Shown here piece by piece: positions 8,879 through 12,241 of a stretch of DNA of 46,326 bases (position 1 is its first letter; each line of letters opens with the position of its first letter). The translations under genes and the position numbers were made by a program. This DNA is from an uncultured Pseudomonadota bacterium (GTDB taxonomy: Bacteria > Pseudomonadota > Alphaproteobacteria > Rs-D84): assembly GCA_900313105.1 (NCBI GenBank), contig OMPY01000005.1, positions 1 to 46,326 on the forward strand, given 5' to 3'. A model generated the notes under the pieces. That model saw nothing but the letters and a program-made list of their open reading frames with translations. It had not been told where the DNA came from and did no database searches.

Positions 8879-9892
8879 TCATTGCGCGACCCCACCGAAC
8901 ACCGCACCCCGGAACCAAGCACGGGTCCGAACGAGGCCCGCGCAGTTGTGCGCGCAGTCGAGTGCACAGACAGACGCCGAGCTGCTCGTGTTGTAGATCA
9001 CCCAGGGCGAAGCCGCAGGCGATGTTAATTTACACCAACAACGATACTCATCCGATGCCAATGTTCCACCACCCGTTTGCGACGTCCATTGGCCATTCAA
9101 CGTGGATATATCATTCGAATCACTTGCAATATATCCAGCGTTATAATACGGATCACCTTCGGGCGATTGGTCATATTTCATTGAATCCGGTGGGGTTATA
9201 TTGCTGCAAACACTGGCACCACGAACATCAAAATCCGCAAATCGCGTTATCCATTCACCCCGCCCAAGGCCGTTTAATTGCGCCCTTGTGCATTGATTGG
9301 CCGTTCCACCACCATCATTACCCGTTTGCCCGTTATTTTGGCGTTTATAACAAGATCCAATACCATTATCCTTGGTTGGTAAATTTAGTGTCGTTTGTAA
9401 TGTCGCCATCGGCGCATCGTTTATCAAAAAACCCGCCGATACTTGCGTAAATTCATTATTTACCGCACTTATTATCGCCGCGTTTACCGTGCCCGCATCC
9501 ACCAATCCATCCACAAACTTATTCGTTTGTGTATCATATATATGTCGTGAACTAATATTACCATTATTGGCCGTCGCCGTAATAACATTTGTCGCCGGTA
9601 TGTTTAACACTACATTTTGTTTATCCCATGGTTCAAATGCGTCCACCGTCATAATACCCGTATTGCCCGTTGTCACATCCGCGGCATCCATAATTACATC
9701 ACGTTCGCCCGCGGCCCCCGCCGAACCGGTATATGTCACAACCTTGTCACCATCCTTGGCCACGAACACCGCCTGTTTATCCCCCAATGTATCTTCGACA
9801 TATTTTTGTGATGTCACCGTTTTTAACGGGTCCGCGTGTGACACACCAATTATCACAACACCACAAAATATCGAATATATTATCTTTCCCAT
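8879..9892 (-). CDS. secreted TVTSQKYV-family protein, second gene of operon
   Basis: The product has 337 residues. Its signal peptide is MGKIIYSIFCGVVIIGVSHA, followed at once by DPLKTVTSQKYVEDTLGDKQ, which nearly repeats the start of its upstream neighbour. The long middle part has VTYTGSAGAAGERDV, again paralleled in the neighbour (ITYTGTVGQTGTRDV). The C-terminal 150 residues are Cys/Trp-rich (SCYKRQ, EYRCWCKL, VCALDCAHNCAGLV) and look like a disulfide-bonded extracellular domain. GGGGGTG lies just before the ATG. It follows the upstream gene by 18 bases. The repeat-like, Gly/Asn/Thr-rich body suggests a surface fibre or adhesin. I know no defined family. Confidence 0.65.
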   Translation of the reverse strand: MGKIIYSIFCGVVIIGVSHADPLKTVTSQKYVEDTLGDKQAVFVAKDGDKVVTYTGSAGAAGERDVIMDAADVTTGNTGIMTVDAFEPWDKQNVVLNIPATNVITATANNGNISSRHIYDTQTNKFVDGLVDAGTVNAAIISAVNNEFTQVSAGFLINDAPMATLQTTLNLPTKDNGIGSCYKRQNNGQTGNDGGGTANQCTRAQLNGLGRGEWITRFADFDVRGASVCSNITPPDSMKYDQSPEGDPYYNAGYIASDSNDISTLNGQWTSQTGGGTLASDEYRCWCKLTSPAASPWVIYNTSSSASVCALDCAHNCAGLVRTRAWFRGAVFGGVAQ

Positions 9893-9910: not shown

Positions 9911-10522
9911 TTATTGGTTTTCCGGCATATATGTTCCACTTAATGTATTCACACTGTATGTCAAACAATGTTCACCCGTTGGGTCCGTTTGCGCGGTATA
10001 ATTACCTTCCCACGCGTTACATGTTAAATGCGCATTAAATCCGTTCGCAATACCCGCATTCACATGTTCCGCCGCAACCAATGCACCCGTTTGACCCGAA
10101 TAAGAATTCGAATCGTTATACACATCACGCGTTCCCGTTTGCCCAACCGTACCGGTGTATGTTATAACCTTGCCATTAAGGGTGGAATTACCATCAATGC
10201 GATCTTGTTTCGCATCCAATGCCGTCTTTACCGCACCCGCCGTTATCAATTCACCTTCGTAATCGGCATCTTCAATATAATTAATAATTGGACGCGCCGT
10301 CACCGCACCATCGGCCTCGTTATTTTCACTGTTCGGATATATTACCGCATAATCACCACCCTGGGCCGACAGTTTTGTTTGCTTGGTTGCCGCAATATCG
10401 TCAACATATTTTTGACTGGTCACCGTTTTTTTCTTTGTCGCATCGTCCGTCGCAAACGATGCACATGTCATAGTAACCAAAACCGCCAAACCAACACCCG
10501 CAGTCAATATTTTGTTTCGCAT
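9911..10522 (-). CDS. secreted TVTSQKYV-family protein, first gene of operon
   Basis: The start at 10522 is preceded by a perfect AAGGAGG and gives 203 residues. A signal peptide (MRNKILTAGVGLAVLVTMTCASFA) is followed by KKKTVTSQKYVDDIAATKQ, the block shared with the downstream paralogue. Further blocks ITYTGTVGQTGTRDVY and GALVAAEHVNAGIANGFN also have counterparts there. It ends after LTCNAWEG and EHCLTYSV without the large Cys-rich domain, so it is a short version of the same architecture. The leader upstream is long and structured. Function is unknown. It is likely exported and possibly a surface protein. Confidence 0.65.
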   Translation of the reverse strand: MRNKILTAGVGLAVLVTMTCASFATDDATKKKTVTSQKYVDDIAATKQTKLSAQGGDYAVIYPNSENNEADGAVTARPIINYIEDADYEGELITAGAVKTALDAKQDRIDGNSTLNGKVITYTGTVGQTGTRDVYNDSNSYSGQTGALVAAEHVNAGIANGFNAHLTCNAWEGNYTAQTDPTGEHCLTYSVNTLSGTYMPENQ

Positions 10523-10560
10523 TTGTGCCTCCTTTCCCATTTTTTCCATTTGTTAATGCA

Positions 10561-10741
10561 ACAAAAAACCACCGAAACGACTCAAGTGGTTGGAGGTTAA
10601 CGACTATAGTACTCGGAAAATAGTGGGCTTATTCGATATATTCACCGCCCTCCAACCCATCATGGTTGGAGGTGTTTTTTGTCCCCACGGACACCGAGTA
10701 CAAATGGGTCGTTACACCCCGTCGACAGAACACCCATCGAC
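10561..10741 (-). promoter_or_regulatory. structured leader RNA, attenuator or riboswitch candidate
   Basis: Read on the minus strand, a transcript from about 10741 would fold as follows. GTACTCGG (10701-10694) pairs perfectly with CCGAGTAC (10616-10609). Inside lie TGTCC/GGACA (10693-10680) and CCTCCAACC/GGTTGGAGG (10672-10649). After the closing helix a second CCTCCAACC (10596-10588) appears. Its AACCAC part (10591-10586) pairs with GTGGTT (10572-10567), followed by six T. The single GGTTGGAGG can therefore pair with either CCTCCAACC copy, which is the arrangement of an antiterminator switch. No known riboswitch class is recognised. Confidence 0.5.
10643..10680 (+). terminator. hairpin with T run on the plus strand
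   Basis: CCTCCAACC (10649-10657) and GGTTGGAGG (10664-10672) with loop CATCAT are followed on the plus strand by TGTTTTTT. As a plus-strand signal it would be a good terminator, but no plus-strand gene ends here. Either a small plus-strand RNA exists or the T run is incidental to the minus-strand leader. Confidence 0.45.
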
Positions 10742-10747
10742 AAAGTT

Positions 10748-10777
10748 ATTTTATCAAAAATCACCGAATCGGGTCAA
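10748..10777 (-). promoter_or_regulatory. promoter of the TVTSQKYV operon leader
   Basis: On the minus strand TTGACC (10777-10772) is followed after 18 bp by TAAAAT (10753-10748). Its sequence context, including CGATTCGG in the spacer, closely resembles the dnaN promoter region at 12175-12204. It would yield an untranslated leader of about 220 nt. Confidence 0.55.
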
Positions 10778-10842
10778 GGGTATTTTGATGATTGATGCAA
10801 ATTTATATTTCTTTGCAAAATTATTTTATAGTAAAATTCCCT

Positions 10843-10958
10843 GTCATACCGCGGTATCGGGCCCCACAAAAAATGTGCAACATTTTTTGTGGGTGATTTC
10901 ACGCGGTATCTTGTGGTTTCAACTGTGACGAGGAGATACCGCCTTTCGGCGGTATGAC
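10843..10958. repeat. MITE-like element with GTCATACCGC terminal inverted repeats
   Basis: GTCATACCGC at 10843-10852 is inverted exactly at 10949-10958. GCGGTATC occurs at 10851-10858 and 10913-10920, with its complement at 10935-10942. The core contains the hairpin repeat copy A (10855-10897), CCCACAAAAAATG/CATTTTTTGTGGG. There is no reading frame of note inside. The 116-bp size, inverted ends and nested hairpin fit a non-autonomous mobile palindromic element. Confidence 0.65.
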
Positions 10959-10961
10959 GAC

Positions 10962-10987
10962 AAAAAAACGGCGCGTCCGCGCCGTTT
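10962..10987 (-). terminator. dnaN terminator
   Basis: A stem of ACGGCGC with GCGCCGT (10968-10985) and a very short loop is followed on the minus strand by seven T. It lies about 25 bases after the dnaN stop. Confidence 0.85.
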
Positions 10988-11010: not shown

Positions 11011-12129
11011 CTACATCCGCATTGGCATAAGAATGAACAACGCGTCCGTGTCTTTGTTCGTGGACTTGATAATCGTTGGCGAAAGCGGGTCCTGCATTTC
11101 CATTTGGAATTTTTCACCTTCGACCTGGCCCGCAACATCCATAAGGAATTTCACATTAAACGTCACCGTGAACGATGCATCACCATTATATTCGACATCT
11201 AATTCCTGGGTCGCGGTTCCGGCATCCGGACTTGACGCATTGACAACCAATTTGTTCATTGAAAAAGTCAACTGCACCGATTTCGTCTTGTCAACACTGG
11301 CCACCGAAACCAAATCGACGGCGTTAAGGAATTGCTTGCGGTCCATAATCGCGATTTTATCGTTGCCCTTTGGAATAACAACGCGATAATTCGGATATTG
11401 CGCATCAACAAGTTTACTTGTCAAAATCGCCGCCCCGATTGTAAAGCGCGCCTTGGTATCCGAAAGTTCGACATTTACATCGTCAACTGTTGCGTCTTCT
11501 AATAACTTTGACAATTCACCAATCACGCGCCGCGGCAAAATCACAGACGGCATTTCCGCAGACCCCGCCGGCGCCGGCATCGCACACAAGGCCATACGCT
11601 GGGCATCTGTCGCAACCGCGGTCAATTTGTTCGAACCGTCGTCATTTGCAATATGAAAATAAATACCGCCCAAATGATAACGCACATCATCGGTCGGAAT
11701 CGCAAACTTTGTTTGGTTAATAAGGTGCGCCAAATCCCCCGTTGTCATTTGGAACTTGGTTGTTAAATTACTGCCCGCCATGGCCGGGAAATTTTCCGCC
11801 GGCAATGTCGGCAAATGGAACACGGCGCGACCACTGGACACCACCAATGAATCACCCGATTGCTTGAACGAAATTTCGGCATCGTCCGGCAATTTGCGCA
11901 CAATGTCATACAGCATCTGAACCGGCACGGTTATTTTACCGCCCAATGTCACATCCGCCGCAACATGTTCAATCAATTCCAAATCAACATTTGTCGCAGA
12001 CAACACCAAATCGTCCGAAACATCCAACTTTACATTCATCAAAATCGGCAAAGTCGCGCGCTTTTCCACAATCGATTGCATGTGCCCCAGTGCACGAATC
12101 AAAACCTGACGAAACACAGAAAATTCCAT
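11011..12129 (-). CDS. dnaN: DNA polymerase III beta subunit (sliding clamp)
   Basis: The beta clamp is a ring-shaped dimer that tethers the replicative polymerase and recruits other repair and replication enzymes. The 372-residue length is standard. Typical segments are VEKRATLPILMNVKL near the start, ATNVDLELIE, FHLPTLPAENFP and the C-terminus ILMPMRM, which matches the family's MPMR ending. Three similar clamp domains of about 120 residues each are expected. AGGAG lies upstream of the ATG. The gene stands alone with its own promoter and terminator rather than next to dnaA, which lies about 10 kb away in the same orientation. Confidence 0.97.
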   Translation of the reverse strand: MEFSVFRQVLIRALGHMQSIVEKRATLPILMNVKLDVSDDLVLSATNVDLELIEHVAADVTLGGKITVPVQMLYDIVRKLPDDAEISFKQSGDSLVVSSGRAVFHLPTLPAENFPAMAGSNLTTKFQMTTGDLAHLINQTKFAIPTDDVRYHLGGIYFHIANDDGSNKLTAVATDAQRMALCAMPAPAGSAEMPSVILPRRVIGELSKLLEDATVDDVNVELSDTKARFTIGAAILTSKLVDAQYPNYRVVIPKGNDKIAIMDRKQFLNAVDLVSVASVDKTKSVQLTFSMNKLVVNASSPDAGTATQELDVEYNGDASFTVTFNVKFLMDVAGQVEGEKFQMEMQDPLSPTIIKSTNKDTDALFILMPMRM

Positions 12130-12174
12130 TTCACACTCCTGTTTGTTATTCCTGTTTCTACATTCCTGGGGATT

Positions 12175-12204
12175 ATTGTATCAAAAAATGCCGATTCGGT
12201 GCAA
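12175..12204 (-). promoter_or_regulatory. dnaN promoter
   Basis: On the minus strand TTGCAC (12204-12199) is followed after 18 bp by TACAAT (12180-12175). It lies in the 112-bp gap after the AsmA gene and gives a leader of about 40 nt. Confidence 0.6.
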
Positions 12205-12241
12205 GGGTAAAAGACACGCCCGCACATATTGACAAAAATTA

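Follow-up and report, generated by a model that had tools for sequence, protein, structure and literature searches.

The C4 antisense RNA (RF01695) of phages P1, P7 and P22 is a structured RNA encoded upstream of an antirepressor gene, and it carries short segments that are complementary to a segment of the downstream leader. A second relevant family, sRNA-Xcc1 (RF02221), is annotated as a trans-acting small RNA. Published work presents it as an sRNA of 88 nt whose ends were mapped (PMC2996969), places it ahead of symE in integron cassettes of Xanthomonas (PMC12444791) and counts seven copies in Xylella (PMC12189769); in the literature that we searched, RF02221 is nowhere treated as a cis-acting leader or linked to antirepressors. 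Here, we analyzed a leader in a 46,326-nt stretch of DNA (the window) from an uncultured alphaproteobacterium, which we read as cis-acting. Like C4 RNA, it is a structured RNA with complementary segments, and its phage relatives lie upstream of antirepressor genes. Unlike in C4 RNA, a single leader of about 190 nt, closed by a terminator, holds all the complementary segments, and the C4 model had no match in the window, in the sister loci or in the diverged loci scanned. The leader also resembles transcription-attenuating riboswitches in its conserved, probably pseudoknotted domain, its exclusive antiterminator and terminator, its many copies per genome and its accessory regulon, but it matches no Rfam riboswitch family. 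Our comparisons indicate that the window leader belongs to a large superfamily of two-state leader RNAs and that it very probably acts in cis to control transcription of the genes behind it.

The preliminary description had placed a promoter, a leader of about 220 nt and a set of helices ahead of a Shine-Dalgarno sequence, with coordinates given without a strand. All of the elements it named are present in the sequence, on the minus strand, so that the leader runs opposite to the numbering (Table 1). The TTGACC-18-TAAAAT promoter predicts a start near 10741 and a leader of about 219 nt (about 10741-10523), and the perfect AAGGAGG is followed by an ATG at 10522. The 8-bp helix GTACTCGG/CCGAGTAC encloses both P4 (5 bp) and the 9-bp P5 (CCTCCAACC..GGTTGGAGG), and the second, 3′ copy of CCTCCAACC overlaps the AACCAC..GTGGTT hairpin with its T run. 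Elements that had been missed are P1, the longer helix TAACGAC/GTCGTTA (P2) and two short local hairpins. The P1 stem is kept with changed letters in two copies of the same genome (contigs C21 and C53), and the minus-strand leader folds better than its shuffles (z = -2.6). Promoter-like sites (at least 9 of 12 matches) occur upstream of 76 of 108 homologues, where shuffles predict 22%. The last bases of the P6 region may pair with the GYG of PA in a possible pseudoknot, for which pair 5:282 of our structure-fitted alignment reads U-A in 54 members and C-G in 38. A leader peptide (GTG AAT ATA TTG AAT AAG CCC..) was considered and rejected, as neither frame nor start codon is kept; many members have GCG or GTGATA there and lose the frame, and we therefore read this stretch as an RNA motif.

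Table 1. Features of the leader and its downstream genes, in the direction of minus-strand transcription
Feature	Position in window	Strand	Basis
Sigma70-type promoter, TTGACC, 18 nt, TAAAAT	10777-10772 and 10753-10748	-	sequence
P1, 5′ hairpin GTCGA..TCGAC, about at the transcription start	10721-10741	-	sequence
PA, short local hairpin GGGG/CCC	10705-10720	-	covaries
P2 5′ strand TAACGAC, in PA loop	10714-10708	-	P2: 99.5% of cells paired
P3 5′ strand GTACTCGG	10694-10701	-	8 pairs, double changes in all, 97% paired
P4 hairpin TGTCC-GTGG-GGACA	10680-10693	-	5 pairs, double changes in all
P5 left arm CCTCCAACC	10664-10672	-	covariation
P5 right arm GGTTGGAGG, shared switching strand	10649-10657	-	covaries with left arm and 3′ copy
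P6 region, conserved GCGGTGAATATATCGAATAAGCCCA	10624-10648	-	near-invariant in sequence-only alignment (A4)
PB, local hairpin CTAT/ATAG	10604-10623	-	CTAT/ATAG to CAAT/ATTG covariation, 98.3% paired
P3 3′ strand CCGAGTAC, in PB loop	10616-10609	-	
P2 3′ strand GTCGTTA	10598-10604	-	covariation
3′ copy CCTCCAACC, alternative partner of the switching strand	10588-10596	-	covariation
Putative intrinsic terminator AACCAC..GTGGTT + TTTT, seated on the 3′ copy	10563-10591	-	
Shine-Dalgarno AAGGAGG	10528-10534	-	sequence
First gene, 203-aa secreted TVTSQKYV protein	9911-10522	-	ORF, signal-like N-terminus
Second gene of likely operon, similar secreted protein	8879-9892	-	ORF directly downstream

The surroundings of the leader hold further repeated sequences. 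The upstream gene is dnaN (11011-12129), and between dnaN and the leader (10840-10985) lie repeat-like palindromes (CCCACAAAAAATGT..ACATTTTTTGTGGG and ACCGCCTTTCGGCGGT) resembling REP or MITE elements. The promoter CCCTTGACCCGATTCGGTGATTTTTGATAWAAT, whose spacer contains CCGATTCGG (10743-10777), recurs almost letter for letter before several RNAs of the same genome, and a variant of it also precedes dnaN (about 12170-12210). Behind the same promoter (GAATCAGATGGGAATCTGGTTCGGGGC...) stands a second repeated leader type on contigs C57, C39, C32, C10 and C35 (loci L004 to L008). By eye, the copy at L004 (positions 1-343 of the locus, minus strand) has the same architecture, with the PA loop TTTCGAA, right arm GTTGGGGTG, 3′ copy CACCCCGAC and a terminator; there is no obvious gene directly behind it, and RF02221 touches it at E 0.08.

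The helices named in the preliminary description all covary strongly across homologues. In an alignment of 112 distinct homologues fitted to the structure of the covariance model (A6), 96.6% of cells are paired and the covariation score is 0.574 versus 0.154 in shuffles (0/500). These shuffles ignore shared ancestry, and the result was repeated on the sequence-only alignment A4, where 95.3% of the proposed-pair cells are standard and the score is 0.373 versus 0.156 (0/500). The letters of P2, P3 and P4 vary freely among members while their pairing is kept. In an unguided analysis of column pairs, P2, P3, P4 and P5 rank first, followed by the switching strand with the 3′ copy, the GYG/CRC pseudoknot pair, PB and PA; a separate count confirmed the last three (0/500 shuffles). 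In P2-P5 read on the minus strand, G-U cells outnumber A-C cells by 108 to 7, which identifies the minus strand as the RNA.

The central feature of the leader is that one strand has two partners. When the GGTTGGAGG strand changes, the left arm of P5 and the outside 3′ copy change too, and both partners follow the switching-strand variants GGTCAGGAGG, GGCGAGAGG, GGCAGGAAG and others. Most members combine the right arm GGTTGGAGG with the 3′ copy CCTCCAACC; a different right arm usually comes with a correspondingly changed 3′ copy (GGTCAGGAGG/CCTCCTGACC, GGCGGGAGG/CCTCCCGCC, GGCAGGAGG/CCTCCTGCC). Other families of the class have the combinations GGCGAGAGG/CCTCTCGCC, GGCAGGAAG/CTTCCTGCC and GCGACTGGAAG/CTTCCAGTCGC, with the 3′ arm of the terminator changing along with them, and in other families and orders the switch sequence is a different one, with the left arm, right arm, 3′ copy and terminator arm still complementing one another. 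The mean Watson-Crick run between switching strand and 3′ copy is 9.13, compared with 7.48 ± 0.13 when 3′ copies are permuted (maximum of 500, 7.89), and 28 cells with double changes compare with 3.9 in shuffles (0/500). G-U cells number 69 in P5 versus 12 in the alternative helix, and such partly G-U pairing of the left arm is expected if a second partner holds the right arm. In addition, 96 of 107 members carry a terminator-like hairpin on the 3′ copy (2.4% of shuffles). Together, the three-way matched changes and the terminator are marks of selection on two predicted, mutually exclusive folds.

These observations bear out the earlier proposal of a leader with two exclusive folds, one freeing a terminator, since both competing pairings covary. 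In the proposed OFF state (state 1), P2, P3, P4 and P5 would form and leave the 3′ CCTCCAACC free, and the AACCAC of this free copy would fold with GTGGTT into an intrinsic terminator. In the ON state (state 2), GGTTGGAGG would leave P5 and pair with the 3′ copy, destroying the terminator; PA and PB, with a strand of P2 and of P3, respectively, in their loops, would fit this state. Two exclusive, selected pairings of which one frees an intrinsic terminator are found here together with a fixed position ahead of a gene, on the same strand and behind an own promoter, and transcription attenuation is the most likely role of the leader. Comparison establishes both pairings and the terminator, as well as the promoter and the location in front of genes; it is by inference that we assign both states to living cells, take termination as the output and name the state that would require a signal. 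With pseudoknots left out, the nested folding energy of the window leader is -75.0 kcal/mol for state 1 versus -55.7 kcal/mol for state 2, so we would expect a signal or factor to promote read-through. As a common signal, c-di-GMP is unlikely, the GGDEF domain being absent in 7 of 8 genomes. GGTTGGAG is the switch sequence in 75 of 102 members. This is more similarity than an expression platform free to evolve would require, and a common factor or another RNA could recognise the sequence. The T run is absent in a few members and the terminator-like hairpin was not found in members of the type of genome G146 (another family), so the output may sometimes be translational. Behind four G146 leaders (L111, L121, L126 and L130), the start codon of several genes lies in an AGCTATG, and translational control is therefore suggested for this genome.

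The genes behind the leaders point to an accessory, often secreted, set of proteins. Downstream ORFs start a median of 49 nt (IQR 45-57) after the 3′ copy, 106 of 118 are preceded by a Shine-Dalgarno-like motif, and by a simple hydrophobicity rule 77 of 118 (65%) have signal-peptide-like N-termini versus 36 of 148 (24%) other ORFs of the same loci. Neither protein behind the window leader has a Pfam match, and the few Pfam domains found downstream of other copies include HTH, pilin-type, outer membrane, ABC transporter, helicase and KilA-N proteins. The downstream gene class is thus wider than the TVTSQKYV proteins named in the preliminary description.

The suggested search for conservation found hundreds of copies of the element, in a constant position ahead of genes. 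The genome of the window (G000, 0.92 Mb) has two further copies with 80-84% identity, each ahead of a signal-peptide-like gene, and a diverged fourth. By blastn, 117 of 141 genomes of the genus matched, and a strict pattern scan of named genomes placed the family in Candidatus Enterousia and in related MAGs whose labels read Alphaproteobacteria or Rickettsiales. In the order of Candidatus Enterousia and its relatives, a covariance model built from 39 sequences (R1) detected the family in 177 of 201 genomes and 18 of 23 genera; full counts in five genomes are 24 in G080 (complete), 21 in G073, 52 in G177, 26 in G146 and 4 in G000. At one locus (L033, 1523-2065, minus strand), three tandem leader copies precede a single small HTH-like gene. 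A second model (R2) matched 26 of 385 genomes sampled from the class, in 20 genera and mostly below 2.2 Mb. Tuned to alphaproteobacterial members, R2 found none outside the order among 299 genomes of the phylum, and in an equal search RF02221 matched 50 of 299 sampled Pseudomonadota genomes.

The statement that the leader belongs to no known riboswitch class stands for the window, which has no Rfam match up to E 10 and so falls short of the RF02221 gathering cut-off of 53 bits, but its relatives match RF02221. A diverged alphaproteobacterial relative (L200) scores 66.2 bits, above this cut-off. Below it, RF02221 matches about a dozen R1-found copies, and a number of copies of Enterousia type score about 27-42 bits in overlapping places; in G000, G080, G073 and G177 none exceeds the cut-off (best 50.4 bits). 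The RF02221 consensus, with the helix between right arm and 3′ copy, the P6 hairpin and the PB hairpin, equals state 2 of the leader. The outer helix and PB are present and covary in the leader family, and P6 is seen in alignments with diverged members. The RF02221 model covers the 3′ half only, beginning at the switching strand; it lacks P1, PA and P2-P5, and the competing state is therefore missing from it. On this comparison, Rfam holds a truncated, differently interpreted piece of the putative two-state leader superfamily.

RF02221 also occurs in many phages, its matches in viral contigs being more numerous than those listed. The phage elements precede antirepressor-type genes, including ant of Haemophilus phage Aaphi23, ant of Escherichia phage Rac-SA53 and a KilA-N gene of Acinetobacter phage 4316. 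Among 82 downstream phage proteins we counted P22_AR_C in 19, Bro-N in 16, KilA-N in 14, ORF6N in 13, AntA in 12, P22_AR_N in 11 and Rha in 8, domains that may co-occur in one protein. The phage members share the 5′ half, with a P2 strand in the PA loop in 61 of 70 (11 expected), and 24 of 54 phage loci align to R2 along its full length (E < 0.006). The phage form differs in its P4 insert and in having antirepressors downstream, where the leaders described here precede secreted proteins. A conserved terminator-like hairpin, CGCACCCGTCAGACCATGCGGTATTTTTGTGCC, is frequent between P3 and P5 in RF02221 members outside the order (L205-L234) and suggests that the phage form has a further attenuation point.

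Three other explanations of the element were weighed. The preliminary description had offered a plus-strand small RNA ending at 10680, and a GGTTGGAGG..TTTTTT hairpin and T run that could serve as its terminator are indeed present on that strand. On the minus strand this T run corresponds to an A-rich junction, which many members do not keep intact, and the 108:7 ratio of G-U to A-C, the promoter and the Shine-Dalgarno sequence all belong to the minus strand, making a plus-strand product hardly credible. A mobile repeat scattered between unrelated genes might be suspected from the many copies per genome, ahead of different genes, and from relatives in phages and integron cassettes (PMC12444791). 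The letters of P2, P3 and P4 differ completely between copies while the pairs are kept, orientation is constant, and near-identical copies independent of gene position were not found; the fixed distance of all copies to the gene refutes such a repeat, which we regard as extremely improbable.

A mainly trans-acting RNA deserves more weight. A terminated or processed leader with free GGTTGGAGG could pair with the 3′ CCTCCAACC of other leaders or mRNAs, in the manner of C4 RNA or as proposed for sRNA-Xcc1. The phage members precede antirepressor genes as C4 RNA does, and the switch sequence is often common to copies within one genome. The RF02221 model moreover starts at the switching strand, and the family was reported as an sRNA of 88 nt whose ends were mapped (PMC2996969). 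Yet position, promoter, terminator and Shine-Dalgarno sequence tie each copy to the gene behind it, and switch-strand changes are matched inside the same molecule, so that we consider action mainly in trans unlikely.

The cis-acting two-state leader suggests that RF02221 be re-bounded and re-annotated as cis-regulatory. It also permits a broader scenario, which is a realistic but still tentative possibility: one two-state leader superfamily would control temperate-phage antirepressors across Pseudomonadota and, after domestication, would have expanded to dozens of copies in gut Alphaproteobacteria with small genomes; there, a single shared signal would switch a large share of the secreted and surface proteins, and sRNA-Xcc1 would be a terminated or processed leader that is not primarily trans-acting. 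The two-state reading would give a function to a recurring, poorly understood RNA family found ahead of phage antirepressor genes, in integron cassettes and in reduced genomes with up to about 50 copies. It would also make testable both an RNA-level signal to which phage antirepressors respond and surface switching in uncultured gut Alphaproteobacteria.
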